Source: Oscillospiraceae bacterium
Lineage (GTDB): Bacteria; Bacillota; Clostridia; Oscillospirales; Oscillospiraceae
DNA: 39,081 nt
Assembly: GCA_017398625.1 (NCBI GenBank)
Contig: JAFQFP010000017.1
Location: 1 to 39,081 of the forward strand
Direction: 5' to 3'
Shown here: piece by piece, positions 8,186 to 39,074 of the stretch
Numbering within the stretch: the stretch's first letter is position 1
Layout: the number at the start of each line of letters is the position of its first letter
Made by a program: the position numbers and the translations under genes
The notes under the pieces: model-generated
Database searches by the model: none
Seen by the model: the letters and a program-made list of their open reading frames with translations, nothing else
Told to the model about the DNA's origin: nothing

Positions 8186-9670
8186 TCACATCATCTGCTG
8201 TGCCATCGACATTGCCGATGGCATTCGTTGTTCCGGGCATTCTGCCATCTCCTCGGCCTGCTCTTGCTTCAGCTGTTGCTTGAGCAGGTCGGCTTCGTAT
8301 TTGACCGGGATCTTGGCGCAGGACACCGCAATACCAAGCCACGCATCGGCAAGCTGCCGCTTGTCCGATTCCGTGCGGATGCCTTCAGCACTGCCTTTCG
8401 CCAGCACGCTCTGAATCTCCATGCGGATCTCTGTGTCCCGGTTTTTGATCACGCCGCGATTCTGATGTGGTTGGATTCTGCTTTGGAGCGCATAAGCCAG
8501 TTCCTCCGAACTGACTGCATCTCCTAACTGATGCCGCTCCCGGCCACAGGCAGCGAGGGACAATGCCGACATTTGTTCCATGCAGGTCATGGCCTGGTCG
8601 AAGCGGCCCCAGTGGAGGTGGGAGCAATACTTATCCAGCAGCCACGGAAGCACCTGCTGTACGATGTCCGGCTTGGCCCTCTCACTCAGCTTTCCGATGC
8701 GGCGGCAGACTTCCGGCGCGACCACGAGCTGCGGATGCTCTACCGGAGCCTGCGCTTCCAGTCCATGTCTGGCCTTGAGATCCTCGTTCCAGTCTTTATG
8801 GACAGGTTGAAGCATCGACACATTGCTGTATCCAGCTTCACGAAGGGTTTCCGCAAGACGGCCATTGACCTCGATGCCTGTTTCATCATGATCCATGCAG
8901 AGGACGATTTTATTTATCTTGTCATTCTGCTCCAGCATCCACAGCAGTGCGTGCCGGGATGTTCCGCAGAGCGCCACATAGCTGTGTTCCTGCCAATTCT
9001 TGGGGTAGAGGGAAATAAAGGACAGCAGATCGATGGGCGCCTCGAATGCGTACAGCCGGTCACTCCTACCCATATGGTGGAAGCTGTACCGTGGGTCGCA
9101 GCCCTCCACATTGATACGCAGAGAGTTGCCGCCGCTGTTCAGACTCCGCTTGTGGGCATGACGGGCAATGCCGTGTTCGTCCTTTCCTACGAACACGGCA
9201 TTGTGGTATTCCTTCATCCCATCTTTGGACTTTTCGCAGCTTTCGTAGACCAGACCAGCACGGGCAAAGGCAGACAGGACTTCACGGTCAATGAGTCTGC
9301 GCTGGAGCAGGTAGGCATATACCCGCCGCATATCGGTGTGTGCATTCGGCAGGGCGAACTCCTTTTTTTCCGGCTCCTCCTGTTTTGCAGGCCGCTCAAT
9401 GACAGTCCCTTGCTCACCATCCAGCAGTCGGGTGACGGCCTCGGGGTATGTGAGACCGTAATAGTTTCTGACAAAGGACACGGGACCGCCGCCGTGCTCG
9501 ATTGCATGATCGTACCACTCACTGCCGCGCACGGTGATGCTGTGGTCGCTGGCCAGCCGATACTCCGGTCCGGAGCGGACCAGCTTCTCGCCCTGCCGCC
9601 GCAGGAAGTCAACGAGATCAACGGAGGCGGCGCGTTTTTTCTGTTCATCGGTAAAGTGGATATACGGCAT
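8186..9670 (-). CDS. DUF3991/Toprim-domain primase-like protein
   Basis: This 494-aa protein has an N-terminal DUF3991-like region (about residues 10-90) that resembles the primase zinc-finger fold without its cysteines. A Toprim-like domain follows, with LYAFEAPIDLLSF (207-219), the acidic VLCMDHDETG (256-265) and KDWNEDL (292-298). Such proteins sit next to relaxases on clostridial mobile elements and may process or prime transferred DNA. The ATG at 9670 has AAGGAGG upstream; a start at 9706 lacks one. The C-terminus is Gln-rich and ends in SMAQQMM, one of several Met-rich tails in this element. The biochemical activity is inferred from the fold only. Confidence 0.85.
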   Translation of the reverse strand: MPYIHFTDEQKKRAASVDLVDFLRRQGEKLVRSGPEYRLASDHSITVRGSEWYDHAIEHGGGPVSFVRNYYGLTYPEAVTRLLDGEQGTVIERPAKQEEPEKKEFALPNAHTDMRRVYAYLLQRRLIDREVLSAFARAGLVYESCEKSKDGMKEYHNAVFVGKDEHGIARHAHKRSLNSGGNSLRINVEGCDPRYSFHHMGRSDRLYAFEAPIDLLSFISLYPKNWQEHSYVALCGTSRHALLWMLEQNDKINKIVLCMDHDETGIEVNGRLAETLREAGYSNVSMLQPVHKDWNEDLKARHGLEAQAPVEHPQLVVAPEVCRRIGKLSERAKPDIVQQVLPWLLDKYCSHLHWGRFDQAMTCMEQMSALSLAACGRERHQLGDAVSSEELAYALQSRIQPHQNRGVIKNRDTEIRMEIQSVLAKGSAEGIRTESDKRQLADAWLGIAVSCAKIPVKYEADLLKQQLKQEQAEEMAECPEQRMPSAMSMAQQMM

Positions 9671-9710
9671 TTTCGTTTCCTCCTTGGCAAAATAAAAATG
9701 AGCCATCGGC

Positions 9711-11186
9711 TCACTGCATCGTCATCTTCGGATCTTCATGGTCATCTGCTTTGTGACCGTGGGCGATCTTCTTCTCCTGGATCTGCTGGGCCAGCTTCCG
9801 GTCAGTGAACTGGTGTTCCGGAATTCTGGGCGGCGGGTTCTCCTGGAAGATCCTGCCCATGTGACGGAGCAGTTTCGTTACACACTGCACCTGACGAGGT
9901 ATCCACGGCTCGTTCTTACGCTCATGAGTTGTAGAGCCGCTTTGACCTGCGGATGACTTTTTGTTCTCTGTCTGCCTCTCACTTCTTGGAGGAGCAGATC
10001 CAGTGTCCGGCTCAGACTGCGGGGTGTCGGGTGGCACCGCTTCCTGCGTGAACTCGGACTTGTGATTTCCAAGTCGCACCGCTTCCTCTATGACCATGTT
10101 CTTGATCCGCTTGAGCTCTTTCTGCTGAGAGAGCGGCAGTCGCTCCGGGAGCTTGTCGCTGTATGTCCGCAGCACTTCCTCCCGCATCTCATACCACAAA
10201 TCGTATGCGGCTTTGACCCGCTCGTCTTTGGCAAGCTCGTCCACGATCTCGTCCACAAGAGATTTCAGCGGCGCTTTCAGATACCCATACTGCTTCTTGC
10301 CGGAGAGACCTTTCAGGGACTGGGACAGTTCATCCATGAGCTGCTCGATGCGATTGCTCTCCATTTCTCCAGTCTGCATCTGCACGATGAGTTCTTTTAG
10401 TCGCTCCTCCGCACCCATCGTCAGCTGATTCCTTCGCAGAGTCTGTTCGGCGTAGATCTCAGTCAGCTCATGGCGGAAGATCTCCTTGGCCAGCATGGAC
10501 TTGATTCCCTCAATACCTTTGGTTGTGAGGAAACCACTTTTCCCATCCTCACTGTAGCAGACCATGTGGATGTGAGGATGCGAGGACTCGTTATGGAAAG
10601 CGGCGTACCACCGGAACTGATTCCACGGTATCCGCATATGTTGTGCCATCTCCATGGCGCTGGCACGGAGCAGGGATTGCCACTGCTCTACATTGTCGTA
10701 TCCCATGCGCTGAGCATCCTCTCGTCTCAGAGAGATAATGGGGAGCCACACATTGCCTTTGTGATGAGCGACTGCATCTGCTACCTGTGAGAGCACCACC
10801 CGGTCATCCGATGCGGTGAAGAGCCCGTGTGTTTCCAACTTCTCTGCGCCGGGACGCATTGCAATGTACTGTGTGTAGTTATTCAGCTTGGCGACCTTAT
10901 CGTAGTTGTCCTCCATTGCGCGGGAGATGAATTCAGATGCGTTGCCGCGGGTCTGCTTTAACAAGTAATCCTCGTATTCAAACATACCCTTGCTGAGAGG
11001 AAAGTCTTTGATGATCTGAGCGACCAGTTCCCTCTGCTTCTTGGTAGGAGGTAGATCCCGCTTATTCAGCTGTATGCGCTCGACACCACTCCGAGTCGCC
11101 ACATAATTTACATAGTGGCGCAGGTGTGATACTGCTTTGTTGGAGCCTCCTCTGATGAATGGACACTTCAGAATGATGCGGGGCAT
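9711..11186 (-). CDS. MobP-type relaxase (MobP3-like)
   Basis: This 491-aa relaxase would nick oriT and pilot the single strand. It opens with the MobP3-like MPRIILKCPF block. A candidate catalytic Tyr is Y28 (HYVNYVATRSG). The His metal triad is H203/H205/H207 (SSHPHIHMV), preceded by FHNE. A long helical region and a disordered, charged, basic C-terminal region follow, ending in KMTMQ. It is encoded 14 bases after an RHH-like protein and about 450 bp from a candidate nic site at 11858-11865, which fits a relaxosome unit. AAGGA precedes the ATG at a slightly long spacing (11 bases). Confidence 0.92.
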   Translation of the reverse strand: MPRIILKCPFIRGGSNKAVSHLRHYVNYVATRSGVERIQLNKRDLPPTKKQRELVAQIIKDFPLSKGMFEYEDYLLKQTRGNASEFISRAMEDNYDKVAKLNNYTQYIAMRPGAEKLETHGLFTASDDRVVLSQVADAVAHHKGNVWLPIISLRREDAQRMGYDNVEQWQSLLRASAMEMAQHMRIPWNQFRWYAAFHNESSHPHIHMVCYSEDGKSGFLTTKGIEGIKSMLAKEIFRHELTEIYAEQTLRRNQLTMGAEERLKELIVQMQTGEMESNRIEQLMDELSQSLKGLSGKKQYGYLKAPLKSLVDEIVDELAKDERVKAAYDLWYEMREEVLRTYSDKLPERLPLSQQKELKRIKNMVIEEAVRLGNHKSEFTQEAVPPDTPQSEPDTGSAPPRSERQTENKKSSAGQSGSTTHERKNEPWIPRQVQCVTKLLRHMGRIFQENPPPRIPEHQFTDRKLAQQIQEKKIAHGHKADDHEDPKMTMQ

Positions 11187-12089: not shown

Positions 12090-13133
12090 TCAACTGAATG
12101 TCATCCCGCCGCTCTGCTGTTCCTGCTGTTGCTCGGTCAGGTACTGCTGACAGGACTCGTCCAGACTCTGGCCCCACTTCTGCTGACAGTAGTCCTCCAT
12201 CTTGGGGAGCAGGAGTTCCTTCTCCGCGTCGGTGAGACGGTACTTGTAATCCTGTTCGCCTCCGCTGCCGCGCACCAGATACACCTCCAGCGTGTCTGCG
12301 ACTTGCTGTTTCTCCATATCGTAGTTGGCATACACGTTCAGGTAGTCATCATTCTCAGTGGTGCAGACATGCGTACCGAACACCTTGTCAGCATCAAAAC
12401 AGACTTCCATGTAGAACTCCAACAGGTTTTCATTCTGCACGATGTCCTCCGCAAATGACACATCCTCCGCACGAAGTGTTCGTGCGCCGGTGAGGTAGAT
12501 GGAGCTGTCCTCATTGGTGAGCTGCTTACCATCCAGACGATCCAGGAACACCTGCCAGCGTGTATCCTGCGAGACACCACTTTTCTTCATGGCAAAGTAT
12601 GCGGCAGTGCTGATATCCTGGATACGGAAGCATTGCCAACCATCCATAATGTGCAGGGTATCAAAGCGCCCTCTGTCCAGGTCAATGTCGAATGCGCCGG
12701 TCACTCGTCCGGTATTCTCCAATCGCTCATTCACATAGGTTTGGAACTGCTCACGGGATATTTTCTCCCCGCGGGAGAACATGCCAGTGAATCGAGCGGG
12801 AGAGTTTTCGGGTGACTTGCGTGTGTAACTTCGCAGCCGTGCCGCCGCCTGGAGCATCTCCAGATTCTCCTCTGCCACGAAGTAGGTGGATTCACCGTTC
12901 TCGGTCACATGGAGTACGGCGAAGCGCCGGGCAGCTTCCGCATCCATCCTGGCCTGCTCTCGCTCCTGCCAGATCTCGCTGCTGATCCGCTCGTACACAT
13001 TTTCCGGAAGTTGATTGACTAACTCATCAATGTGTTCCTCCAGCTTCTCTGCGACTGTACCGTCCAGCAGATGTTTTTCCAATGCTTTGCACCACCGCTC
13101 ATCTACCCAGAGCGTAATTTCTCGCTGCGTCAT
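12090..13133 (-). CDS. Uncharacterised 347-aa protein beside oriT
   Basis: I do not recognise a named function. The first about 55 residues (REITLWVDERWCKALEK, then a helical acidic stretch) resemble the start of the neighbouring 95-aa protein at 13136-13423, which suggests related N-terminal domains. The middle is rich in aromatic and charged residues, with no catalytic motif I can name. The C-terminus is strongly Gln-rich and ends in GGMTFS, the Met-rich tail shared with other soluble proteins of this element. AGAAGGAGG precedes the ATG, and the gene starts 2 bases after the upstream stop. It is the last gene before the oriT gap. It is probably a transfer-associated cytoplasmic protein. Confidence 0.75.
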   Translation of the reverse strand: MTQREITLWVDERWCKALEKHLLDGTVAEKLEEHIDELVNQLPENVYERISSEIWQEREQARMDAEAARRFAVLHVTENGESTYFVAEENLEMLQAAARLRSYTRKSPENSPARFTGMFSRGEKISREQFQTYVNERLENTGRVTGAFDIDLDRGRFDTLHIMDGWQCFRIQDISTAAYFAMKKSGVSQDTRWQVFLDRLDGKQLTNEDSSIYLTGARTLRAEDVSFAEDIVQNENLLEFYMEVCFDADKVFGTHVCTTENDDYLNVYANYDMEKQQVADTLEVYLVRGSGGEQDYKYRLTDAEKELLLPKMEDYCQQKWGQSLDESCQQYLTEQQQEQQSGGMTFS

Positions 13134-13442: not shown

Positions 13443-14639
13443 TCAGTCGTAGCTGATGTATTCGATCTCCAGCCAGTGCGTCCAGTTGCGGTCGACCAAC
13501 TTGGTCTTGACCACACCGTACTTGGTACCCATGGCCTCGATGACCTCGCCGTTCCCGATGTAAACGCCGATGTGCCCATCGCACCACACAGCCAGTCCGG
13601 GAATCTCCGGGATGGTGTCGATGGTACCGGACACGGACGCGCTTCGGTACATTTGGTTAGCACCGTAGTCGGGCATTCCGTTGGTCGCGTACCCGATGGT
13701 CAGCGTGTCTGGGTCGAGCCAGCCATAGCCTTTGATCAGTCCCACACAGTCGGTGGTTCTGCCACCGAGCCAGTTGGCTTCGATGAAGTCCTCGTAGTTG
13801 CCAACGCCGTCCGGGTACTGCTCCAACTTGTAGTCGAAGAGAGAGTCGGTCAGCACGTTGCCATAGGTGCCCCAGACATAGCCCCAGCCGGACTCCCAAG
13901 CATGGATCGCATAGGCTACGAGGTCGGTTGCGTTCTTGGTGGCCGGGTCCGTGAAGCCGGAGATGTCCAGCGCCACGCTGTATGCCGTACCTCGCTCGTA
14001 CTCGCCACTGTAGCTTCCATCGCCGCCGACCACGCCAGCGATCATGGTGTAGATGTGGTCTGCGTTGGCCCTGTGGTCTGTGGTGACTGCATACCCAAGA
14101 AGACCTGCAAGATTTGCGTAGGCGCGTTCCAGGCTGACAGGCACGGCGACTGTGTATTCTTCTTCCTCCTCTGTGATCGTTCCGTCCTCCAGCTCCACCT
14201 GCACCATCCTGGTGCGGATCTCGGTGGTGTAGAAGCACCCGACCACATTGTTTGCCGTTGCGGTGGCCGGGATATCCGCGCCAAAGCAGAGGGCATAAAA
14301 AATAGCCTTGACTCTGACTGAATCAAGACTTCCATCTTCCATCTGACTGTTCACAGACGCGACCGCCGAATCCAGAGAGGAAAAAGCCGACTGCATCTCT
14401 GAGACATAGCTTCGGAACTCTGTCGGGACTTCCGCTGAGAAGCTGACTCCATAGAAGCACGCCTCCACTGTGGCGTTGTTGTGGTCTGCACCACCGGAGG
14501 CGAAAGAGCATATCACCGCTATCAGCAGGATGAGTGGTGACAGGATCGCCACCAGTATCCAGCCAAGACCTTTCCGCACCTTCTCATCTGACAACGCAGC
14601 GGCGGCGATCTTGGCAACAGTTACAGGATCGACTGCCAT
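13443..14639 (-). CDS. NlpC/P60-type cell-wall hydrolase of the conjugation system (VirB1-like role)
   Basis: This 398-aa protein has an N-terminal cytoplasmic stretch and one transmembrane helix (about residues 27-47). An extracellular middle domain follows, then a C-terminal NlpC/P60-like papain-fold domain with catalytic Cys298 (TTDCVGLIKGYGW) and His356 (CDGHIGVYIG). It would open the peptidoglycan for the type IV channel, the VirB1 role in Gram-positive systems. The start is at the VirB4 stop: the GGGAGG ribosome binding site is embedded in the last VirB4 codons, so translation is coupled. The region at 159-163 is a run of Glu. The function is well supported by motifs and position. Confidence 0.9.
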   Translation of the reverse strand: MAVDPVTVAKIAAAALSDEKVRKGLGWILVAILSPLILLIAVICSFASGGADHNNATVEACFYGVSFSAEVPTEFRSYVSEMQSAFSSLDSAVASVNSQMEDGSLDSVRVKAIFYALCFGADIPATATANNVVGCFYTTEIRTRMVQVELEDGTITEEEEEYTVAVPVSLERAYANLAGLLGYAVTTDHRANADHIYTMIAGVVGGDGSYSGEYERGTAYSVALDISGFTDPATKNATDLVAYAIHAWESGWGYVWGTYGNVLTDSLFDYKLEQYPDGVGNYEDFIEANWLGGRTTDCVGLIKGYGWLDPDTLTIGYATNGMPDYGANQMYRSASVSGTIDTIPEIPGLAVWCDGHIGVYIGNGEVIEAMGTKYGVVKTKLVDRNWTHWLEIEYISYD

Positions 14640-14641: not shown

Positions 14642-16498
14642 TTATTTTCCTCCCGCTTCTCCGAACAGCTTCCGCTTATACTCCGGAGCGCGGACGTCCA
14701 GCAGGTACCGCTCGTTGCCGCACTTGTAGAGACAGATGCCTCTCTGGGGATGACGGATGAGCTCGTACTCTGATTCCTCCAGCTGGAGGTTGTCCATGTA
14801 GAACTTCTTATCCACGCTGCCGCAGTAGAAGATGAACTGATGTGTCGGGATGGAGAAGAGCGGGCGTGTCAGCTCGGCGATGCCGGGGAGCATGAAGTCC
14901 TCCAGATTTTGCGAGGCGAGGATCAGGCTGGAGTCCCGCTTTCTGGCACGCTTGAGGACATTTCGGATGTACTGGATCGCCGTCTGATTGGAGATCCACA
15001 CGTGGAGCTCGTCCAGTCCGGCCACGGTGTTGCCCTCCACCAGCAGCTTATTGCTGAAGTAGGACAGGATGTTGAACAGCATGGCGTTGCAGAGACTGCC
15101 TCCGGTCTGCACCAGGTCACGGACACCGAACACGAGGAACCGGTGGGAGGTGATGTTGGTGTGACCGTTGAAGAACTTGCTGTCGGCGCCGCGGCACATG
15201 GAGTGCATCCCCAGCAGCACCTCTTGCAGAAGTTCACGGGGATACAGGGGATTTTCCTCTCTGTCATAGTTCTGATACGTTTCCTCGATCACATCGTACA
15301 GGTCGCTCATGATGGGATAGTCGGTGGGCTTCAGGATGGCGAAGTTGGCTTGGTCACTCAGGCCCCATTTGGCATAGAGACGCTCCAGCATCAGTTCGAT
15401 GGTGTCGATGTGCCGGTCGGCAAAATCCTTGTAGGATTTGAAGAGGTCTTTCAGGAAGGAGATGTGCTGAGACAGCTTCGACTGCTGCCGGAAGGCCATG
15501 GGCGCTTCCAGATCCTCCTTTGCCTCCTTTGCCGTATCCGTACTCCACAGCTTCGGCTCCAGAGGATTGATGATGTACTGACCGCTCATCATGTCGGTGA
15601 AACAGCCGCCCAGATTGGTGCAGAGATCCTCCAGCTCATGCTCAGTATCAAAGCACAGCACCTTCTTGCCGCTCTCCAGCACGTTGCAGAGCAACAGCTT
15701 TTGCAGATAGCTCTTGCCCTGACCGCTGTTGCCCAGCACGAGGACACTGCCGGTGGTCTTGTCATCACTGCGGCGTTCCAGATCCACGATGATGTTGGAC
15801 CCGTACCTGTCCTTTCCCACATAGAATCCGTGGGGGTCTGTCTTGCCGGAGAAGTTGAATGGATACAGGTTTGCCACCGAACTGGCAGGCAGGACACGCT
15901 CATACAAAGAGCCGAAGGTGTTGTAGCCTGCCGGGTTTGCGGCGGTGAAGCCTTCCCGCTGTCGGAGCAGGATGCGGTCTGCGCTGATCTTGGCACGGGT
16001 CAGTTCAGCCGTCACCTCATCCCGCAGCGACCGCAGGCTCTCGGTATCCTTTGCGGACAGTTCCAGAAAGACGGCGCAGTGGATGAGCGGTTCCTGATTC
16101 CGGTTTGTGGAGGTGATGAGGGTGACCACATCCTGCAGCTTGGCTTCGGCAGTCACGCTCTGCTGGAGATTGTTCGTGTTGCTCCGCTCCATACGGTTTT
16201 TGTTTGCGGCGTTGTGAATGATGGCGTTCCGCTCGGCCGGGGTGACCTGCCGGTTATAGATCCGAAGTGCCACGCCGCTTTTCTCGCCCAGATGCCGCAG
16301 GATCGCCAGTTCCTCAGTGGTGACGGGATAGCTTTTCAGTGCGAGAACGCACCGGTATGTGCCGCCAAGGATATAGTGGTCCGTGTTGAAGCGGACGGCG
16401 GCAGGCGCGATCATGTCGAGGAAATCCTTGGGTGGTGCGGGAGGCATGGGCTTTGCCGCAGGCTTACTTTTCTTCTTCTGTGTTTTCTTCGTTGCCAT
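14642..16498 (-). CDS. VirB4-like conjugation ATPase
   Basis: This 618-aa traffic ATPase energises pilus or channel assembly at the inner face of the membrane. A Lys/Pro-rich N-terminal tail precedes a VirB4 N-terminal domain. Walker A is GNSGQGKS (256-263) and Walker B LDELHVW (D496-E497). ASQNLEDFMLPG and a C-terminal FYCGSVDKKF region are characteristic of Gram-positive VirB4 (TrsE/TcpF) proteins. GAGGAGG precedes the ATG. The protein is shorter than full-length VirB4s (about 800 aa); a separate upstream gene (16746-17333) carries a VirB4-N-like domain that may supply the missing part. Confidence 0.93.
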   Translation of the reverse strand: MATKKTQKKKSKPAAKPMPPAPPKDFLDMIAPAAVRFNTDHYILGGTYRCVLALKSYPVTTEELAILRHLGEKSGVALRIYNRQVTPAERNAIIHNAANKNRMERSNTNNLQQSVTAEAKLQDVVTLITSTNRNQEPLIHCAVFLELSAKDTESLRSLRDEVTAELTRAKISADRILLRQREGFTAANPAGYNTFGSLYERVLPASSVANLYPFNFSGKTDPHGFYVGKDRYGSNIIVDLERRSDDKTTGSVLVLGNSGQGKSYLQKLLLCNVLESGKKVLCFDTEHELEDLCTNLGGCFTDMMSGQYIINPLEPKLWSTDTAKEAKEDLEAPMAFRQQSKLSQHISFLKDLFKSYKDFADRHIDTIELMLERLYAKWGLSDQANFAILKPTDYPIMSDLYDVIEETYQNYDREENPLYPRELLQEVLLGMHSMCRGADSKFFNGHTNITSHRFLVFGVRDLVQTGGSLCNAMLFNILSYFSNKLLVEGNTVAGLDELHVWISNQTAIQYIRNVLKRARKRDSSLILASQNLEDFMLPGIAELTRPLFSIPTHQFIFYCGSVDKKFYMDNLQLEESEYELIRHPQRGICLYKCGNERYLLDVRAPEYKRKLFGEAGGK

Positions 16499-16510: not shown

Positions 16511-16756
16511 TCACATAGTCTGGCTCTGCATGGGAGCAGGTGTCACAAGCCCCTCCTGCACATAGGCATCATAGGTGCTTTCCGCATACTCCCGCATCCA
16601 GTATTCAGGATCGGGGTTTTCCTCCAACTCGAAGGGATGGATGCAGAAGCAGTCGATGCGGTCATCGCAGTCCTGGGTATGCACTTCGCAGAAGTACCCG
16701 CCTTCGTTCTCCCCGCAATCGGGGATGCAGGAAATTCGCAGCTCCTTATACTCCAT
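16511..16756 (-). CDS. Small Cys-rich acidic protein, unknown
   Basis: This 81-aa protein has six cysteines in its first half (CIPDCG, YFC, QDCDDRIDCFC), suggesting metal binding or disulphides. An acidic region with many Tyr follows, and the C-terminus is PMQSQTM. The ATG at 16756 overlaps the stop of the upstream gene by 11 bases and has a GGTGG about 10 bases upstream. It is sandwiched between the VirB4-N-like and VirB4 genes and so is probably part of the transfer operon. I do not recognise a family. Confidence 0.6.
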   Translation of the reverse strand: MEYKELRISCIPDCGENEGGYFCEVHTQDCDDRIDCFCIHPFELEENPDPEYWMREYAESTYDAYVQEGLVTPAPMQSQTM

Positions 16757-19713: not shown

Positions 19714-20411
19714 TTTCGTTCCTCCTCTCCTTTATCCTCCAGTTCATCCAGTGCATCGAACAGGAGCAATGGCGCATACAGGCTGGCAAAGTCAGCCAGT
19801 AGAAAAATGCGCTTTCTTCGTTGCGCCAAACCCCAAAATTGTGCGTCCAGACAACGCCACGCCAAAGAAAAGGCATATTCTTCCTTCAAAAGCATTCCGG
19901 CGTCCGGCCAGCCCTCTCCGGGGTTTGGTCCAGGCATTCTTGCCTCCGGTATAGAGACTCTCATGATCTCTTCCAGCACGATTCGGAAGTCCTCGTATTT
20001 CGGATCTCCGCTTGAAAAGGCGCCCGGCACATTTTCCCAGCACATCCAGCGGGGGCGCACATCGATTCCAGTACGGCCGCGTGCCATATCTGCCGCTCTC
20101 ATTTCCTTGACGATGCGGATCTGCTCCATAAACAGGCCGGAGCGTTCTCCTGAGAGACCGGCGCGGGCGCCCGCAACGCTCAAATCCTGGCAGGGGCTGC
20201 CCCCACAGATGATTTGAACTGGTGGGAGTTTTGCTCCGTCCAGCTTTGTGATATCCCCGACATGGATCATGCCTGGGAATTGGTGCTTTGTGACTTCAAT
20301 GGGAAAAGCCTCGATCTCACTGGCCCAGACAGGCGTGATGCCGTGCCGGATCGCCGCCAGTGGGAAACCACCAATACCATCAAAGAGGCTTCCCATTGTC
20401 AGGCCGGTCAT
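19683..20411 (-). CDS. C5 cytosine methyltransferase, catalytic gene (motifs I-VIII)
   Basis: This 242-aa protein contains motif I (GSLFDGIGGF, residues 7-16), motif IV with catalytic Cys74 (GGSPCQDLS), motif VI ENV (126-128) and motif VIII QRRKRIFLL (197-205). It stops shortly after, before any target-recognition domain. The next gene supplies motifs IX and X. The ATG at 20411 overlaps the VirB6 stop (ATGA), so its expression is tied to the transfer operon. Known split C5 enzymes such as M.AquI divide in a similar place. The long open frame upstream is antisense-like noise through the VirB6 gene. Confidence 0.9.
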   Translation of the reverse strand: MTGLTMGSLFDGIGGFPLAAIRHGITPVWASEIEAFPIEVTKHQFPGMIHVGDITKLDGAKLPPVQIICGGSPCQDLSVAGARAGLSGERSGLFMEQIRIVKEMRAADMARGRTGIDVRPRWMCWENVPGAFSSGDPKYEDFRIVLEEIMRVSIPEARMPGPNPGEGWPDAGMLLKEEYAFSLAWRCLDAQFWGLAQRRKRIFLLADFASLYAPLLLFDALDELEDKGEEERKCTSAINTDS

Positions 20412-21307
20412 TTTGTGACCGCCTTTACCACGGTCTGGGTGGTGTTGACCGCGGCCTGTGCGGTATAGACGGCAGACATGATGTTTGCCCTTGTGGTGGT
20501 ATCCAGACCGAAGGAGCCTGCGATCCTCGGCACCTCTCCGGCTGAGAGCATAAGACCAAGACCGAGCAGAGCGTGATCCTTGAACACCATGAGTCCGGCC
20601 ACCAGTATCGTTGCCTGTAGGAATGCTGTCAGGCACAGGCCGATGACCTGTTTCATCCACTGTACGAAGCCATCGATATATCCACGTGGGATGCTGAACA
20701 TATAAAGGCTCCCCACGGCGATCTGGATGAGCAGGATGCCTCCGCGCTTGAGGTTGGCGAAGAACACCTTGATCACCGCATAGGCCATGAGGATGATGCA
20801 GAACAGATACATGATGGGGCTGGTAATGGCACCGAAGCCCATAAAGCTGCCGGTGGTCAGGTCAGAAAGGCTTTCTACCGCGCTCAGCTCCGCGACGATT
20901 TCAGTGGCCACATCACCGATGGATGTACCGTATCCAGTCAGTCCAGCTGTCAGCGAACCCTGCAGCGAGACCGACAAAGCATAGAGTCGCACCGGCACGG
21001 TGGTGAACAGACTACAGGCCATAAAGCCTTTGATGATATTCAGTGCCGTCTGCTTGATGTTTCCGCGACCGGACGAGTATTCGATGCCGCAGTCAAATGC
21101 CGCTACCACGATGCTGACGCCAAAGAGAGCCCAGGCCAACTGCGAGAAAAACTGCACGATGGACTGGACCCAGCTCATCTCGAAGAGCTCGACACCCATG
21201 TTGCCCATCTCCGCAAAGAAGTTGCCCAGGAAGCCGATCATCTGCCCATAGATCCAGTCCACGATGGTGTCCATGATCAGATTGGCAGTAAAATCCCAGA
21301 TAAACAT
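20408..21307 (-). CDS. VirB6/TrbL-like polytopic membrane protein
   Basis: This 299-aa protein has about six hydrophobic helices. It has the features of Gram-positive VirB6-like channel components: an N-terminal amphipathic region, a helix pair around FGVSIVVAAFDCGIEY, a Gly/Ser-rich extracytoplasmic loop (about 115-155), helices around ITSPIMYLFCIILMAYAVIK, and a conserved-looking GGILLIQIAVGSLYMFSIPRGY block. It forms part of the membrane pore. The start has GAGGTGAG at a somewhat long spacing. A terminator-like hairpin lies just upstream at 21347-21378. Confidence 0.85.
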   Translation of the reverse strand: MFIWDFTANLIMDTIVDWIYGQMIGFLGNFFAEMGNMGVELFEMSWVQSIVQFFSQLAWALFGVSIVVAAFDCGIEYSSGRGNIKQTALNIIKGFMACSLFTTVPVRLYALSVSLQGSLTAGLTGYGTSIGDVATEIVAELSAVESLSDLTTGSFMGFGAITSPIMYLFCIILMAYAVIKVFFANLKRGGILLIQIAVGSLYMFSIPRGYIDGFVQWMKQVIGLCLTAFLQATILVAGLMVFKDHALLGLGLMLSAGEVPRIAGSFGLDTTTRANIMSAVYTAQAAVNTTQTVVKAVTK

Positions 21308-21392: not shown

Positions 21393-21827
21393 TTACTGCA
21401 TCGTCTGACTCCACTGGGGCTGTGTGGCTGCGGTCTGCACCTGCTCCTGGAAGATATCCAGATAATCGTTCACAGCGTTGGAGAGCTTCTGATAGTCCTG
21501 GCTGGTGGGATGGTAGACATACCAGTCCACCTTTCCATGGTCATCCCAGATGTGTGGCATCACGCCGTCCCGGAAGTTGGGATTGCTGACCATTTTCTTC
21601 CCGAGCAGATCGGAGAAACGCAGGACGAGATTGTCCACATCGCCCTCCTGACGGTTCAGGATCGTCAACCGCAGAGCATCATAATGGCTTGCGATACCTC
21701 CGGTGATGAACTGGATCTTCGCCCGGTTCATCTCATTCAGACGGACATAGCAGGCTCGGCCAACATAGGTCGCATCCGGGTAATTCGACTCCACGATCTT
21801 GCGGAGCTCTTTTTCATAAAAAGTCAT
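21393..21827 (-). CDS. Uncharacterised 144-aa protein of the transfer operon
   Basis: This soluble protein of mixed alpha/beta composition has no membrane segment. It has aromatic-rich stretches (WDDHGKVDWYVYHPT) and ends in SQTMQ after a Gln/Ala-rich tail, one of the Met-ending tails common in this element. GAGG precedes the ATG at 21827. It is the first gene left of the rightward methyltransferase cassette and the nearest upstream gene to VirB6. I do not recognise a family. The tail suggests it may belong to the same functional class as the relaxase and Toprim protein. Confidence 0.7.
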   Translation of the reverse strand: MTFYEKELRKIVESNYPDATYVGRACYVRLNEMNRAKIQFITGGIASHYDALRLTILNRQEGDVDNLVLRFSDLLGKKMVSNPNFRDGVMPHIWDDHGKVDWYVYHPTSQDYQKLSNAVNDYLDIFQEQVQTAATQPQWSQTMQ

Positions 21828-23086: not shown

Positions 23087-23088
23087 CC

Positions 23089-30800: not shown

Positions 30801-30880
30801 TCAGCGGCGGAGGCGACGCCGGGGAACATTCCCAACAGCATGACGACCGCGAGAAGCATCGAAAGGATTCGCTTTTTCAT
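24845..30880 (-). CDS. Giant thioester/Cna-B (SpaA-like) cell-surface adhesin, 2,011 aa
   Basis: An N-terminal signal peptide (cleavage near VASA-AD, about residue 26) is followed by a thioester-type domain: Cys78 (AYCVNP) and Gln132 in YQAYYATKMALW are the likely cross-linking pair. A linker region precedes 16 tandem Cna-B/SpaA-like domains of about 88-100 aa (about residues 355-1820). Most open with an I-x-K-x-D strand and contain a GxYxVxE-type strand and an F-x-N strand, the Lys-Glu-Asn pattern of intramolecular isopeptide bonds. A final about 190-aa domain ends in TTTLPRTGY. The ATG at 30880 has GGAGG upstream. It probably forms a long proteolysis-resistant stalk for host or donor-recipient contact. 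There is no C-terminal hydrophobic anchor after LPRTG, which is unusual. Confidence 0.93.
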   Translation of the reverse strand: MKKRILSMLLAVVMLLGMFPGVASAADSVEEALGEVDIYNGGQKLSYLSINGRVRELIYTYYNYVDRNGNTKEIPAYCVNPNTKGVPQTVPEGESIKYLAEEIGTDPKVMGIIANGYPHRGLGELKLENKYQAYYATKMALWCYLLSHWDINNLKVNPDLTGVELERANKMLAAAKDIYRRGTAWSTVLSPNVTVEPDQEVAYPATVNGQEYLQQIFTVTSDTWVCDYTINVAFTDPSAVPAGTKIVDMNNREIDVITTEATGQGYSGQFKVLYPAGSVEGQSGSVQLSFRTNVYKYAIYYAVCAETDKYGNLQNYMVDTDPTTPLALTAYSNYTDTPEEIPTETSLKIIKYEEGTTIPLRGALFEVVDPEGASVGTFTTNSKGQIVIPLTLAGNYTVYEREAPNGYLLSEEPAQNVKVEYGRQATVTFENAPYGNLLVRKFSDSGMQLPGAAVRIEHIESGAVYTGETNYAGVAVFNEIEPGAYRITEIAAPAGYIMSDEVYNTTVLSGDTVEVSIVNEEKPGLRIIKYDSKTHAAMPNISFEVFRDTQSLGIFKTDEFGEILLTDLDPGTYLVKEVATDSSHIINSNPQQIELEGSDGILELFFFNDQKPGIHLVKLDSTSLEPLPNARFRIEHVGGTFSKEYVTDENGEVDISDLEPGAYRVTELEAPDGYLIDDAQRVIQINGNENAQFVFTNTRKPSITVVKYDPVADKYLPGAIFRVAKIEDGSHYLDRVTETNGSFTITDLEPGVYSVQEQAAPSGYVLNSHEYHVELFPGQNSQVVVVNEAKPDLRIIKTDADTGKPVSGVTFTIRYADGSTITTEATDENGEVFLEDMEPGAYEVWEQSVPENYILDTEHQHITLEPNRIGTVQFQNHQRPTLVINKVDLNGKALTGAIFELKTKAGVKIGDFPVDANGKVTISNVHLTEGYYIITETQAPAGYILDSTPHEVYLRPGKTTEISIENEEKPDLLIQKIDSVVGDGIKGAKFEILVAKDKSTDGAYERLDNSFYFTDANGQIKIDDLDTGWYKIVEVEPASGYMLKEPSEQTVYVDNDKSVTVVFENIPKSALVISKVDADTGIGLPGAWFRVRYLGGTSGSGGTIIGEYQTSSNGNIILTGMDAGTFIVEEISAPDGYVIDTASQTAYISGNEQDVVTLTFTNSAKGGLLIKKVDSVTGKPLSDVQFFVTDSDGSVIGSANGYFTTDINGSILISDITPGITLVVKETRTRSGYVLDDTPQSIKIQSNAIMTLEFRNQPKGGLIVVKKDAVTGETLSGVQFKITTASGELVANNEGMTSSNGLYTTDENGQIVLSNVMPDTYVVTETQALDGYILNSTPQTVVVNAGDTQTLTFTNQPYGGLLIKKMDSVTKEPLADVVFKVTTSDGSVVGSGNGLYRTDENGFISIPGLEPDSYIVSEVQAKKGYLLDDVPRTIEIRDEKTHTLEFFNQPLGSLVIHKLDSVTKKPLEGVQFKITYADGKVVDAAGGQLSSNGLYWTDENGQITISGITGTVVVTEVETVPGYTIHEESRSQTVVVNTNDTQSLYFYNAPIGGVEIIKVNEANTSERIPNTTFEIRKVDDELVDTVTTDKNGRVFCSLEDGAYYAVEIEAAEGFKLDDTPVYFEVENGQTVQLRVTNQAYSGILIHKTDANTGEGIYGVSFLLYDSGKNPIGEYVSDDRGYVYIEDIPSGRYYLRELEPAEGYIADTQLKSIYVTAGTTTEVEWENTAITGQIQITKTSADYNSVNGWPAGTPIPNTVFEVYHARTGKLMDTIQTNKNGVATTKPLPLGRYKLVESRAADFYGLDKTPIEVEIEHAGQIVKTAMTNKSLYTNVSIKKTGYTEVMPGQSIRYDFSEIANNSTTVLTSFYWRDTLPTNAVRLDKIVTGTYNVQGNYKIVYRTNLTGDSYRTLADNLNTMKNYVLDASPAALGLASNEYVTEFMVTFGVVPANFRQVESPKVYCNVVSWLTGGTQFVNQADVGGVYNGQWIMAATRWVTRVYKPSTTTLPRTGY

Positions 30881-31978: not shown

Positions 31979-32785
31979 TTACACAACCTGTCGAGCCTGC
32001 ACGCACCAACGGTACTGGCTCTGATTACGGACGCAGGTATAAAGGGTCAGCAGGTTGTCCGTGGAGGAGGCCAGCGCGCTCGTATCGGTCTCACTGACCT
32101 TGGATACGGAGTACACCTCATAAGTTCTGGTGCCCAGCTTCGTGGTCAGGGTGATCCTGTCGCCAAGCTCCAGCGTGTGGATCTCGCCGAAGTAGCTGTT
32201 GGCACCTCGGTTATGAGCCGCTAATGCCACATTGCCATCCCAGATAGAGGTTTCGGTGAAATGGCCCACGCCTTTGGCGAGAGTGGAGCTACCGGTACCC
32301 TGATAGATCCTGACCGACAAATCCAGCTCCGGGATCTTCAGCGTGCCGAGATGACCACCGGAATAGTAAAGGTCACTGGTCACTTCGGTATATCCGGTAT
32401 AGCTGATCATGGGATTGCCGGGATTGTAAATATCATCTGCCGAATAGGTCGGGAAGATGATATTTCCTCCGGTCCCGTTGATGATGGCCCCGCTTCCCGC
32501 GGCAGTGGCGGGAGCCAGATTGGGAGTCAGGTAGAATCCGGTGTTCAGCGCATCGGCACTGGCACTTCCGAAGCCGGGAGGGATGAGAGCTGCGTTCTTG
32601 CTCACATCCTCATTTTTCATGGCTCCACCGTCTGCCGTATGCACCACTTCGATGGAGGTGGGCGTGCCGTAGTCAGGATCGCCGACACCGTCGATGCTGT
32701 AGGACATGGGTCCTGCCGCGCTTGCGGTCACGGCGAGGGAGGCCATCAGACTGGCCATCAGAAGGGTTGTGATCAGTTTCTTCAT
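31979..32785 (-). CDS. Secreted sortase-family transpeptidase
   Basis: This 268-aa protein has an N-terminal signal peptide (about residues 1-24) rather than the usual membrane anchor, and a Gly/Ala/Asn-rich spacer. The sortase domain contains LGTLKIPELDLSVRIYQG (147-164), catalytic His191 (ALAAHNRG), LELGDRITL (206-214), Cys251 (LLTLYTC) and an Arg at 259 or 265. The class looks closest to D/E by the LKIPxLxL and HNRG pattern. It is very probably the enzyme that acts on the LPRTG-ending adhesin encoded 1.1 kb downstream. The start overlaps the upstream stop by 4 bases. Strongly supported family. Confidence 0.9.
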   Translation of the reverse strand: MKKLITTLLMASLMASLAVTASAAGPMSYSIDGVGDPDYGTPTSIEVVHTADGGAMKNEDVSKNAALIPPGFGSASADALNTGFYLTPNLAPATAAGSGAIINGTGGNIIFPTYSADDIYNPGNPMISYTGYTEVTSDLYYSGGHLGTLKIPELDLSVRIYQGTGSSTLAKGVGHFTETSIWDGNVALAAHNRGANSYFGEIHTLELGDRITLTTKLGTRTYEVYSVSKVSETDTSALASSTDNLLTLYTCVRNQSQYRWCVQARQVV

Positions 32786-33778: not shown

Positions 33779-34162
33779 TTACATATTCATGCTCATCCCC
33801 ATGGCGGGGGCGGCGGACTGCTCCTGCTGGCGCTGCTGGAGCATGGAGAGTTCCTGCTGGTAGGCGCCAAGCACCGTCTGATCGAACTCCTGCTTGAACT
33901 CCTTGGTGCAGGGGAAGCAGATGTCCTTGTAGCTGTCGCCAGACTTGTAGTCAGGCATGGCTACATAGGGGCCGTTTTTTCCATCCATGACCCGGATGCC
34001 GCGAATGGCGAAGCAGCCGTTCAGGTTAGCGGTGGCGTTGGCCAGCACATTGCCCTGGGTCTTGATGGAGTGGATGCGGACGTCCACATGGATGGGCGGG
34101 TACTGCGGCGCGGGGGCTTTGTCCTGCGCGGGGGCAGGAGCAGGGGTTTTGCTCTGTTTCAT
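33779..34162 (-). CDS. SpoVG-like protein
   Basis: This 127-aa protein has a Pro/Ala/Lys-rich N-terminus, then a SpoVG fold (residues about 26-105) with VRIHSIKTQGNVLANATANL, FAIRGIRVMDGKNGPYVAMP and a following FPCTKEFKQ. SpoVG proteins bind nucleic acids and regulate gene expression in Firmicutes; copies on ICEs are common. The C-terminus is Gln-rich and ends in GMSMNM. AAGGAGG precedes the ATG. It lies in a tight leftward series with the YodL- and DUF3849-like genes. Confidence 0.88.
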   Translation of the reverse strand: MKQSKTPAPAPAQDKAPAPQYPPIHVDVRIHSIKTQGNVLANATANLNGCFAIRGIRVMDGKNGPYVAMPDYKSGDSYKDICFPCTKEFKQEFDQTVLGAYQQELSMLQQRQQEQSAAPAMGMSMNM

Positions 34163-34802: not shown

Positions 34803-35540
34803 TCACTCCATTGTCATGCCGCCCATAACGGGACCGGCAGTTTGTTCCTGCTGTGCGGGGCGAAGCTCATCCAGCTTGCTCTGCGCCCATGCAGGGAGGT
34901 GCTGTTCGTCCAGAATACCGATGAAGTCCTCACGATTCCAGCGGGTATGCTCTCCATCACCGAGACAGGTGGCGTACACCGCTCTGCCTGCGGCAGTGGG
35001 ACTGCAGCCGAATCCACCACCTGCCAGCCAGAGCTGATTTTCGGGAGCCCAATAGGATTCCTTCAGCGTGTAGGGACTCATGACCAGCACTTTGCCCTCC
35101 AGTTCCTGTCCGGTCATGGTGGTGCAGTGGGTGCGGTCGAACATCTGGAGCTGCTCCTGTTCCTTCCGAAACTGATTCACAAAGCCATCCAGCACGGCGG
35201 GATGGCTCTGTACGGTGAAGTCGTGGTTCCGGTCGCTCTGGGGGATGAAGGTGGAGGCGGCCCATTCCTTATTCTGCGGGCTGAATCTCCCATCTTCCTT
35301 TTTCTGCTGTAGGGTAGCGGCCAGCACCCATCCTACACGCTTGAAGCCGTACTCCTCGATGACACTCCTGGCGCAGTCTTGATCCAGATGCATCCCGTCA
35401 AAGCCTTTTCGGATGGCATCTTCAACGGCCTCTTTGCAGAGGATATTCTGCTTGTGGCTCATACGCCAATCCTCCAGTTCATTGTTCCGTCTGGCCTCGG
35501 AGATGGAGCCGAGATAGAGATAGGCGTGATCTTTAGGCAT
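34803..35540 (-). CDS. DUF3849-family protein
   Basis: This 245-aa protein has an N-terminal DUF3849 domain (about residues 5-100): LYLGSISEARRNNELEDWRM, NILCKEAVEDAIRKGFDGMH and GWVLAATLQQKKEDGRFSP. The C-terminal half is different, with KVLVMSPYTLKESYWAPENQ. It ends in a Gln-rich tail and GGMTME. The ATG at 35540 overlaps the upstream stop by 8 bases with AGGGTGAT before it; an in-frame GTG at 35549 is the alternative. The family is known only from clostridial mobile-element cargo, without a defined function. Confidence 0.8.
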   Translation of the reverse strand: MPKDHAYLYLGSISEARRNNELEDWRMSHKQNILCKEAVEDAIRKGFDGMHLDQDCARSVIEEYGFKRVGWVLAATLQQKKEDGRFSPQNKEWAASTFIPQSDRNHDFTVQSHPAVLDGFVNQFRKEQEQLQMFDRTHCTTMTGQELEGKVLVMSPYTLKESYWAPENQLWLAGGGFGCSPTAAGRAVYATCLGDGEHTRWNREDFIGILDEQHLPAWAQSKLDELRPAQQEQTAGPVMGGMTME

Positions 35541-36033: not shown

Positions 36034-37017
36034 TTATTCCTCCATGTTGTTATTTGGGGTTTCAGGTTCGTGGATCAGGGTGTAGCGTCCGTCCTCCTCG
36101 TCTGCGATGGACAGGTTGAACATACTGAGCTGCCAGTTCCTCACAGACTCCAGAGTTCGGGGGTCATAGTTGGTGATGACGATCTCCTCGTACTCGCTTC
36201 CGGCCTTCTGGGACATACTGTTGGGCCGTGTGGTGTAGAAGATATAGAACTCCTTGTACAGCTCAACGATGTAGTCGCAGTAGTTGTAGGACACCATCAC
36301 ATGGCCTTCACACTTCAGAAGCGCATCGTGGAGCCGCTGGTGATCCTCCTTGGGAAATTCAACAGCATAGCAGCCTTCCGCTTCGAAGTAGGGCGGGTCG
36401 CAATAGAAAAAGGCATCCCCACGGTCATACTGCCGGATGAGGTCAACACAGTCCTTGTTTTCAACGATGACCTCGGCCAGCCTGCGGGAGCACTCCCATA
36501 TCAGGTGAAAGAAGCGCCGTATGTCACAGACTTTGCCTCCAAAGGATTTGGCACCACCGCTGAAGCTGTATCGGATGAGCTTGTAGTAATCAGCGGCACG
36601 GCGCACATCGCCGCGGGGCGCACGCTCCAGCATCAGCCGCTTGATGGCTTCCGCTTCCGGTGGCTCCAGGTATACTTCCGTCAGTTCCAGTTCCTCTTTC
36701 AGATAGTCATCCGTAAACTCCTCTTTGGAGAAGAACTTGTACAGCACATTGAAATCGTCACGGGAATTCAAGGGAAGGAAGCCGAGTTCACGGAGCAGAG
36801 CCATGGTTCTGTTCTTTACGCAGCAGAAGAGATTGGTCAGGTCGCTGTTGAAGTCGTTGTATACCTCCATGCATCCCCGCTGGATAGGACGGCTCAATGT
36901 CACCGTTCCGCTCCCGCCGAATACATCTATGAAGCGGGAGTACCGCAATGGCGACAGCCTGTGGATCAACCAGAGCAGTTTGCCTTTACCACCGACCCAG
37001 GGGATGAAGCTTCTCAA
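36034..37017 (-). CDS. Dam/D12-class adenine-N6 DNA methyltransferase
   Basis: This 327-aa protein contains the D12-class motifs: X (PWVGGKGKLL, residues about 6-15), I (DVFGGSGTV, about 31-39) and the catalytic IV DPPY (207-210), plus EYEEIVITNY near the end. It would methylate adenine in a short site and protect the element from host restriction or regulate it. The start is a TTG at 37017 whose TTGA overlaps the stop of the upstream winged-helix gene, with GGCGGTGATG upstream. No cognate nuclease is adjacent. The family assignment is firm. Confidence 0.92.
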   Translation of the reverse strand: MRSFIPWVGGKGKLLWLIHRLSPLRYSRFIDVFGGSGTVTLSRPIQRGCMEVYNDFNSDLTNLFCCVKNRTMALLRELGFLPLNSRDDFNVLYKFFSKEEFTDDYLKEELELTEVYLEPPEAEAIKRLMLERAPRGDVRRAADYYKLIRYSFSGGAKSFGGKVCDIRRFFHLIWECSRRLAEVIVENKDCVDLIRQYDRGDAFFYCDPPYFEAEGCYAVEFPKEDHQRLHDALLKCEGHVMVSYNYCDYIVELYKEFYIFYTTRPNSMSQKAGSEYEEIVITNYDPRTLESVRNWQLSMFNLSIADEEDGRYTLIHEPETPNNNMEE

Positions 37018-37435: not shown

Positions 37436-37450
37436 GTTATCATGTTAGGT

Positions 37451-37819
37451 TCAGCTGAAGGTCATGTCATGCTGGCTGAGTTGGTTACAGTAATCATTCA
37501 CTTCCTGGTCGCTGGGACAGAAGACCTCTTTCGGCTCTGCTCCACCCATCTGCATCGGTGCAAGATGAGTAAGGACTTGCGACAGTCGCTCTTTGTCTGG
37601 GCAGGTATCGATAAAGGTTCCAATGGTGTTTAACACCAGCATGTCCATACGATCTGTAAGGATGATTTGGTCAGCATCGGGAAAACGCATAAGGAACGAT
37701 GCGATATTCTCCGGGGTCCCATCGAACCAATACTTTTCCCGCTGACCATCTCTGTAGACATATCCAAGCGTTACAGAGGTGCTGTCCAGCAGAGACTGAA
37801 TCTGATCGTTGTCTGCCAT
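37451..37819 (-). CDS. Uncharacterised 122-aa protein with Met tail
   Basis: This soluble acidic protein has a beta-rich N-terminal half (VTLGYVYRDGQREKYWFDGT), a helix and strand around RFPDADQIILTDRMDMLVLN, and a C-terminal tail ending in DMTFS, as in the 347-aa protein by oriT. AAAGGAG precedes the ATG at 37819; the ATG at 37828 is too close to it. It is the last gene before a strong terminator. No family recognised. Confidence 0.7.
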   Translation of the reverse strand: MADNDQIQSLLDSTSVTLGYVYRDGQREKYWFDGTPENIASFLMRFPDADQIILTDRMDMLVLNTIGTFIDTCPDKERLSQVLTHLAPMQMGGAEPKEVFCPSDQEVNDYCNQLSQHDMTFS

Positions 37820-37838
37820 ACCGTTCATCTCCTTTCTG

Positions 37839-38204
37839 TCAAGATAAGTGCTGAGTTTGGCCCCAGGCGGGTGCTACCGGGAGAAGGTCTGCAATCTCGG
37901 CAAGAATGCTTTCTCTATCTCCACGGGCAGAGCAGCCTTCATGGTTGTGCTTCTCTATGAAGGAAGGCGGAATATCCTTTGTGTGTAGTGTAAAGCCTTC
38001 GCCATCCTTTTCGAGAAGGTGCATCAGGTTCGCTGAATTATCCATAGACAAGGGCAGATGATCCATTATGCCGCTCAGAGTGTCGTGATGCTCTAAGCTC
38101 CCGGACAGGATTTCGCCGATCTCGTTTTCCGGCAAATCCACAGCCCAGACCGTAAAATCATCGTAATCATCTCGATATAGGAAGATGGCCTGTCTGTATT
38201 TCAT
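37839..38204 (-). CDS. Uncharacterised 121-aa protein
   Basis: This soluble acidic protein has an N-terminal strand-rich part (MKYRQAIFLYRDDYDDFTVW) and a His-rich middle. It ends in GQTQHLS, which only faintly resembles the Met-rich tails. GGAGGTGG precedes the ATG at 38204. It lies 19 bases before the 122-aa gene and 15 bases after the next upstream stop. I do not recognise a family. Confidence 0.65.
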   Translation of the reverse strand: MKYRQAIFLYRDDYDDFTVWAVDLPENEIGEILSGSLEHHDTLSGIMDHLPLSMDNSANLMHLLEKDGEGFTLHTKDIPPSFIEKHNHEGCSARGDRESILAEIADLLPVAPAWGQTQHLS

Positions 38205-38219
38205 GCTGACCACCTCCGT

Positions 38220-39074
38220 TCACTGCATTACCATACCTTGCGCCTTCTCATCGAAGAACATCTGCATTTCACCATCCTTGCGCTCCACAAGCCCATAGGG
38301 AGTCAGCTTGGAGTGGTGCTCCTCCATTACGGCGTTGCCGTAATTGTAAAGGTCGACGTGTTTCTGAAGGATCTTCAGCGCCTCACTGTCTACGATGAAA
38401 CGGAGTTCATCCAGTCCGACTTCCTCAACGCTTCTCGGCTCCTTCTCATACAGATAATCGTCCAGGTTTTCAGCGATGAAGGTCGCGGTGCTGATATTGT
38501 GGCAATCAGCGGCATGGAGGACGGCTTTCAGTTTGGGCAGTTCTGATCGCTCCTGCCGGTATTGGATGGCCTGTGCCAGCTCGTTGAGGTCATCCATGCC
38601 ATCGCAGTCCAGCTCCTCCAGAATGTGCGGGATGGCGCTGTCCCGTGCTTCAAAGACCGCCTCGCTCCACGATGCGGCTCCACAGGCATTCAGGGCATCG
38701 GCCAACTCATCCGGTGTGGCCGGGAGATCCAGACGCACCAGATTCTCCGGCTTATCGTTGGTTTCGAAGGGATACCGGCCAACCATGAGGCTGAACACAT
38801 AGTCGGGTCTCTTGGGGATGAGGGTCAGCGTGTCATACACCTGCTTCAGGTCGGATTGCGGGGAGACATATCCACGGTTGACCAGGATGCCGCCATCCTC
38901 CAGCCGCATCTTTTCGCCCAGCTTATCGAAGTCCAGCAGTTGGAATATGCTGTCAGGAAGCTCATTCAGCTCCGGCATGAATCCGTTTTCCGCATAGAAC
39001 TCGCCGAGCTGGGCATCCGTGGTCACGCCCTCGACAACCATGCAGCAGTCCGTGCTGTAGGCAAGGTCGATCAT
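38220..39074 (-). CDS. Large uncharacterised ICE protein, start near or beyond the window edge
   Basis: At least 284 aa are visible. The ATG at 39074 has only 7 bases of upstream sequence, so the true start may lie outside. Some phrases (DKLGEKMRLEDGGILVNRGYV and RLDLPATPDELADALNACG) resemble segments of ArdA-like or related antirestriction proteins on clostridial ICEs, but I cannot assign the family. The rest is acidic and helical, with no transmembrane segment. It ends in KAQGMVMQ, one of the Met-rich tails. If it is ArdA-like, it would mimic DNA and block type I restriction in the recipient. Confidence 0.65.
   Translation of the reverse strand: MIDLAYSTDCCMVVEGVTTDAQLGEFYAENGFMPELNELPDSIFQLLDFDKLGEKMRLEDGGILVNRGYVSPQSDLKQVYDTLTLIPKRPDYVFSLMVGRYPFETNDKPENLVRLDLPATPDELADALNACGAASWSEAVFEARDSAIPHILEELDCDGMDDLNELAQAIQYRQERSELPKLKAVLHAADCHNISTATFIAENLDDYLYEKEPRSVEEVGLDELRFIVDSEALKILQKHVDLYNYGNAVMEEHHSKLTPYGLVERKDGEMQMFFDEKAQGMVMQ

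Follow-up and report, generated by a model that had tools for sequence, protein, structure and literature searches.

Nine otherwise unrelated soluble proteins with similar short C-terminal tails are encoded on a 39,081-nucleotide contig (JAFQFP010000017.1 of GenBank assembly GCA_017398625.1) of an Oscillospiraceae bacterium; this whole stretch, in the following called the window, is a portion of a conjugative element in an incomplete genome. We propose that the tails serve as a recruitment signal, short, flexible and C-terminal, which is matched to the lineage of the VirD4-type coupling protein and most likely acts as a translocation signal for type IV secretion, and on comparison with related elements we regard this as the probable explanation. 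All nine C-termini that the initial annotation had read at the stops of these genes are present in the sequence (Table 1), and the tail is absent, as had also been claimed, from VirB4, VirB6, the hydrolase, VirD4 and the two C5-methylase frames. The codons and the surrounding DNA of the nine tails differ from one another, and therefore the tail is a feature of the protein level. It occupies the extreme C-terminus of proteins whose bodies belong to different families or to none, and the likeness is confined to the last few residues. A simple gene caller, which exchanged some real window genes for antisense frames, gave 39 window genes, of which 10 encode proteins with Met among the last four residues, namely the nine tailed ones and a D12 adenine methylase (positions 36034-37017, minus strand) whose end NNNMEE is unlike the motif.

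The tails recur around similar coupling proteins elsewhere. Of 300 genomes of the family, 60 contain a homologue of the relaxase, and in 21 regions around such relaxases Met stands in the last four residues of 173 of 771 proteins, compared with 22 of 354 in 20 control regions from five of those genomes (P 1e-12, with proteins treated as independent); M-x-M in the last six residues occurs in 41 of 771 and 0 of 354, respectively. A scan for VirD4 with an 18-row alignment gave at least 560 relatives among at least 596 matched stretches. Among the best 80, which were kept, are records of Flavonifractor plautii, Anaerotruncus colihominis, Lacrimispora, Tissierella, Sedimentibacter and Oscillibacter as well as a near-identical contig of an Oscillospiraceae metagenome-assembled genome (MAG) from water deer colon, with a VirD4 match of 99%. 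Loci around window-like VirD4 proteins are called clade A here and comprise 106 regions with 1432 proteins non-redundant at 80% identity. Met in the last four residues is found in 311 of these 1432 proteins, compared with 22 of the 354 control chromosome proteins, and the tails recur across clade A at 32 to 64% GC. At least one Met-tailed protein is present in 98 of 106 loci and at least three in 70, compared with 4 of 20 control loci with three or more. At the level of protein families, a Met majority is found in 32 of 134 clade A families and in 18 of 315 control families (P 1.1e-7), where element families needed two non-redundant members and control families one; the 32 is an upper figure because it includes some families of membrane proteins or of atypical ones, with ends such as GGMF. 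Two clade A regions with Met tails (L190, L191) lie on contigs labelled as Nitrospiraceae or Nitrospirae MAGs, which reflects either wide transfer or misbinning.

The tails are distributed unevenly between soluble proteins and the transfer channel. Carriers are soluble and include the relaxase, the DUF3991-Toprim primase, ArdA, DUF3849, YodL and SpoVG. In the 21 relaxase regions, Met in the last five residues was found in 13/13 ArdA-like proteins, 11/12 members of the 347-residue family, 15/19 Toprim proteins and 14/22 relaxases, and likewise in the families of the 144-residue protein (5/5), SpoVG (4/4) and DUF3849 (6/7). The corresponding figures for non-carriers are 0/16 for VirB4, 0/14 for VirB6, 0/16 for the hydrolase family, 1/22 for the RHH protein and 3/18 for VirD4. 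The same split holds in the non-redundant clade A set, where Met in the last four residues is found in 36 of 61 DUF3991-Toprim proteins and in 24 of 28 relatives of the 347-residue protein, compared with none of 21 VirB4, 37 hydrolase-family and 9 VirB6 relatives. A putative amidoligase, represented by a PF12224 match in one clade A locus (L171, positions 17-883) where a gene for a GGACT-domain protein follows, belongs to a family whose 8 non-redundant clade A members all have Met among the last four residues; such a wall- or peptide-modifying enzyme would be an unexpected cargo.

The tails had been described as Met-rich. Met is indeed preferred, but the term is too narrow, as the motif consists of short hydrophobic stretches, often alternating, such as MTM, MSM, EMQL, EISMR, YITY or MGGM, preceded by a Glu/Gln-rich stretch. 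Pooled over positions -18 to -7, Glu and Gln account for 25.7% of residues in tailed clade A proteins versus 12.9% in untailed ones, while Lys or Arg make up 6.5% versus 15.3% of the last six. In a structural model of the 347-residue protein (mean predicted local distance difference test score, pLDDT, of 86) the body is folded and residues 341-347 are predicted to be disordered, with a pLDDT of 38. Many relaxases (~430 to 1000 residues) have a conserved GHKxDDHE-like block that is followed by a variable hydrophobic tail (TITM, EMQL, YITY, NWTMSM, EISMR). That tails do not vary freely among relatives, a test named beforehand, is borne out: sequence and linker drift, but the class of the tail persists.

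The class of the tail changes with the VirD4 clade. VirD4 matches are present in 44 of 299 genomes of the phylum and split into a close and a distant group. In twelve additional clade A loci, 39 of 203 proteins carry Met among the last four residues and 16 of 203 carry M-x-M, and 20 loci with distant VirD4 proteins have M-x-M in only 2 of 372. In one distant clade, B1 (CD1115/CD1110 of NCBIfam), many proteins are Arg-terminal and end in ER, and in another, B2, proteins end in acidic-hydrophobic strings, for example -DEWEL. Scored as fixed features on proteins non-redundant at 80% identity (1432 for A, 73 for B1, 208 for B2, 354 for the control), Met in the last four residues is found in 7 B1 and 23 B2 proteins, an ER or ERE end in 5, 20, 10 and 1 proteins of A, B1, B2 and control, and an acidic-hydrophobic end in 15, 0, 36 and 6. 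An ER/ERE majority is seen in 7 of 17 B1 families versus 1 of 315 control families (P 1.8e-9), and an acidic majority in 6 of 47 B2 families versus 5 of 315 (P 0.001). In B2 loci obtained after the pattern was seen, 27 of 157 proteins have an acidic-hydrophobic end versus 6 of 354 in the control. Two named records of the B1 clade, Cohnella herbarum and Monoglobus pectinilyticus, have Arg ends in 7 of 17 and 6 of 14 listed genes by the annotators' own gene calls; one of the latter six is VirB4. A VirD4 tree separates A, core B1 and core B2 with branch support of 100/99 or better; it compares only these three clades, some of its rows form long branches and its labels follow the best-scoring seed. 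The NCBIfam CD1115 cut-off of 250 bits is passed by one B1 VirD4 (543) and one B2 VirD4 (328), and the window VirD4 scores 242 bits, below this curated cut-off. The net charge of VirD4 opposes that of the tail, with medians of 0, -9.5 and +5 for A, B1 and B2 among few independent sequences.

The same family can have different tails in different clades. DUF3991-Toprim proteins mostly end in Met or Leu tails in A (MTM/MKLSM/CQALQL), in HER/GQER/RERE in B1 and in EEEMEL/EEAEL/EEEAII in B2. DUF3849 proteins end in MGGMTM-like strings in A and in KEPER/KEQAR in B1; the B2 members, weak matches of 35-65 bits, end in FDDLEL/DGELEP/LEMTL/EDLER. The tails of RadC and of an SF2 helicase differ between B1 and B2. 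Two codes also occur within one genome (G504), which holds two B1 loci and four A loci, two of the latter taken from the stretches between VirD4 genes. Here Met tails are found in 17/74 proteins of the A loci versus 3/41 of the B1 loci (P 0.041) and ER ends in 0/74 versus 11/41 (P 4e-6).

Relaxases mostly keep the tail at loci where a VirD4 is not detected. Among 20 further MobL relaxase loci, two (L318, L319) were in regions already examined, and at 18 of the 20 no match to the VirD4, VirB4 or VirB6 of the window was found within ~10 kb, with four of the 18 cut by contig ends. The relaxases at these 18 loci, which we take for mobilizable elements, have Met in the last four residues in 11 and in the last eight in 16 cases (control: 22 and 53 of 354), and mostly end in QTMSM, GMSMQ, GMTMGGW, GMVMGGM, GMSMATPW and alike. 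Transfer of the relaxase into the recipient is well established. Retention of the tail at these loci fits a recruitment signal, because the relaxase of a mobilizable element must be accepted by a foreign coupling protein.

We therefore favor a recruitment signal, of which the working could be as follows. The folded body of a soluble cargo protein would be followed by a linker rich in Glu and Gln and then by a stretch of ~3-7 residues in which hydrophobic ones, usually Met, are spaced apart. VirD4 of the donor, or an element-specific partner, would bind this stretch, and the bound cargo would be fed into the channel alongside the relaxase and its DNA; primase and antirestriction proteins, among others, may thereby reach the recipient. 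Each VirD4 lineage would read its own tail, Met/hydrophobic in A, basic with a terminal Arg in B1 (the CD1115 family) and acidic-hydrophobic in B2. We infer that VirD4 is the receptor and that the carriers are transferred. The broader idea, that conjugative elements of Bacillota share a coupling-protein-specific C-terminal address code in which cargo families swap the tail between element types, mobilizable elements keep the tail of the borrowed machine and the transferred protein set could be predicted from the tail, has in our judgment nearly even chances. The original suggestion of a common signal read by the coupling protein is partly supported: it withstands two tests named beforehand, on free variation and on homologues elsewhere, and gains from the switch of tail class with the VirD4 clade and from the relaxases at loci with no detected VirD4, but B1 and B2 relaxases do not cleanly follow the code of their clade.

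Several observations weigh against this reading. The B1 relaxases end in RQYES/RQYDL/GQYEP and not in ER, and the B2 relaxases in GYER/GYDR or NEAEI/NENSM. Of the 63 non-redundant relaxases of clade A, only 26 carry Met among the last four residues; 37 have Met or the alternating hydrophobic pattern, which is unspecific (49/354 controls, 362/1432 A proteins), and the remaining 26 have neither. The count for relaxases at loci with no detected VirD4 is weaker as independent evidence because relaxases share descent. No Met-tailed protein is present in 8 of 106 clade A loci, four of them shorter than 7 kb and the others up to 20 kb long. At the 20 loci with distant VirD4 proteins, Met in the last four residues (38/372) is slightly more frequent than in the control. 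The features of B1 and B2 were defined after part of those loci had been viewed, and B1 is a small and redundant set of nine related loci with 73 non-redundant proteins. In B2, ER ends are also seen, in 10 of 208 proteins and 4 of 47 families, and a Met majority is found in 4 of 17 B1 families, VirB6 among them. Three records whose VirD4 is 45-49% identical to that of B1 (L325-L327) have no clear code. On a plasmid of L. paracasei (L092), with a VirD4 outside core B1, DUF3991 (ALER), relaxase (DIER), PcfB (KERER) and ArdC (EKTR) all end in Arg, and the Arg code thus extends beyond core B1. When a motif model was trained on one half of all families, the other families scored only modestly above the control, with 11% in A and 8% in other clades versus 5% expected. 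Finally, tail and VirD4 co-evolve with the rest of the element, and the comparison covers three clades only.

The strongest alternative is that the tail docks proteins on the transfer complex of the donor, such as the relaxosome or the coupling-protein assembly, for example in regulation, while most carriers stay in the donor. Relaxase and primase are also donor-side DNA-processing proteins, the PcfB-family protein of B1 is tailed, and the link to the VirD4 lineage fits docking as well as transfer. We nevertheless consider docking unlikely, since the carriers ArdA, YodL, SpoVG, DUF3849 and amidoligase seem to have no obvious role in the donor and the RHH family, a likely part of the relaxosome, is without a tail (1 of 44 clade A relatives with Met in the last four residues). 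Absence from the RHH family also speaks against a degradation tag or protease-adaptor signal that would keep element proteins at a low level or clear them after transfer. Many C-terminal degrons are short, flexible and hydrophobic, as are the tails, but the chemistry of the tails follows the VirD4 clade even where A and B1 elements share a genome and its proteases, and a degradation tag is improbable. Spread of the tails by recombination of gene ends, as a shared 3-prime cassette with no common function, would suit the frequent recombination in mobile elements and a small-protein family that mixes tailed (18/59) and untailed forms; this is highly improbable given that codons and linkers differ among the window tails and that the tail class is kept across large divergence in many families. 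An artefact of ribosome-binding sites, overlapping starts of the next gene or composition, suggested by tight gene packing, by GA-rich ends that could encode E, R or G and by fewer Met tails where no gene follows in the locus (7/102), is hardly credible and was rejected for ribosome-binding sites, because Met tails in clade A are about as frequent in genes more than 40 bases from the next gene (81/395) as within 40 (68/339), Arg codons in B1 are mixed (CGG, CGA, CGT, CGC, AGA, AGG) with gaps of up to 570 bases, and clade A spans the range of GC content given above.

Homologues elsewhere often have no tail, as seen for ArdA, SpoVG and proteins of Bacilli plasmids. Two single-domain ArdA proteins of 165 amino acids (L095, L096), presumably of the Tn916 kind, are without a tail, and ArdA-like proteins in eight other genomes of the phylum end in GQQMT, FQMGGM, GGMQMQ and alike. 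Of 15 readable SpoVG proteins, 8, including that of the window, are tailed and 7 untailed, the context of the latter having been checked for neighbors only. On three Bacilli plasmids with a more distant VirD4, the DUF3991 protein, relaxase, ArdC and SSB have no Met tails, one of the three being the L. paracasei plasmid L092 with its Arg ends, and an Oscillospiraceae plasmid (L091) has only weak forms of the tail.

Short C-terminal signals on unrelated proteins, often charged or Glu-rich, are described for type IV substrates of the VirB/VirD4 and Dot/Icm systems, such as VirF, RalF and the E-block (PMC10025392). The tails resemble these in being short, C-terminal and common to unrelated proteins. 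In contrast to those Gram-negative effector or Agrobacterium systems, the candidate signals described here belong to conjugative elements of Bacillota and have a Met, Arg or acidic-hydrophobic motif depending on the VirD4 clade. The XVIPCD of the bacterial-killing type IV secretion system (T4SS) of Xanthomonas is likewise C-terminal, binds VirD4 and has a Gln-rich tail, but is described as a conserved domain of ~120 residues (PMC10025392), whereas only a short motif is found here. We rejected identity with XVIPCD, as the likeness is limited to the last few residues and no domain of ~120 residues is shared. Passage of proteins through a conjugative T4SS has been shown for an F plasmid, and its conjutome and the transfer of SSB, PsiB and ParA agree with our proposal in that the machinery also carries proteins from which the incoming DNA benefits (PMC8406263, PMC11288057). 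The F plasmid signals are described as C-terminal or internal and fall into several groups of charge and hydrophobicity (PMC11288057), in contrast to one motif common to the element. In the open-licence literature searched, outside of which most subscription papers lie, no C-terminal transfer signal for Gram-positive conjugation is described.

The polyvalent proteins described by Iyer et al. in 2017 for conjugative elements including Tn1549-like ones are argued to enter the recipient (PMC5512222). They overlap with the carriers in the families ArdA, YodL, Toprim primase, RadC and ArdC-N, and domains of these types are encoded beside T4SS genes in the loci studied here. No C-terminal signal is described in the passages of that paper (PMC5512222) consulted here, and its text contains no mention of secretion signal, methionine, DUF3991, SpoVG or DUF3849. 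If true, our proposal would supply the missing signal for the idea that antirestriction and primase proteins accompany the DNA into the recipient and would make this co-transfer directly testable. The set of transferred proteins, including many families of unknown function, would become readable from sequence for a common class of elements in gut bacteria, and the recognition of mobilizable elements by a foreign machine would be explained.

In the window, the transfer genes, including that of the RHH protein, are encoded together with the tailed proteins on the minus strand (Table 1).

Table 1 Tail carriers and main transfer genes of the window
Feature	Position	Strand	C-terminus or remark
VirD4-type coupling protein, proposed tail reader	6118..8166	-	without own tail; clade A member
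DUF3991-Toprim primase-like protein, 506 amino acids	8186..9706	-	tail ...SAMSMAQQMM
MobL/MobP3 relaxase, 491 amino acids	9711..11186	-	conserved GHKADDHE block, then tail DPKMTMQ
347-amino-acid protein, no Pfam family	12090..13133	-	tail SGGMTFS
398-amino-acid protein, hydrolase of the initial annotation, no Pfam match	13443..14639	-	non-carrier
VirB4-like ATPase	14642..16498	-	non-carrier
81-amino-acid Cys-rich protein	16511..16756	-	tail MQSQTM
VirB6/TrbL-like membrane protein (PF19511)	20408..21307	-	non-carrier
144-amino-acid protein	21393..21827	-	tail WSQTMQ
SpoVG-domain protein	33779..34162	-	tail GMSMNM
DUF3849 protein	34803..35540	-	tail VMGGMTME
122-amino-acid protein	37451..37819	-	tail HDMTFS
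ArdA-like protein (PF07275, weak, 31.8 bits)	38220..39074	-	tail QGMVMQ

The genome of the window has a second VirD4 on another contig (C3, L251), which belongs to yet another lineage, and no Met tails are found among the genes called nearby. On the plus strand of the window (21968-24183), an EcoRI-type adenine methylase adjoins a GmrSD_N/HNH protein; both are without a tail and are likely a restriction-modification pair within the element, encoded on the opposite strand. The C5-methylase (18100-20411, minus strand) is read as two overlapping frames, one for each end of a single Pfam profile, and is either a split enzyme or interrupted by a frameshift. A surface protein of 2011 amino acids (24845-30880, minus strand) with a thioester domain, many SpaA repeats and an LPRTG end is probably a mating adhesin, and a sortase is encoded near it (31979-32785, minus strand).

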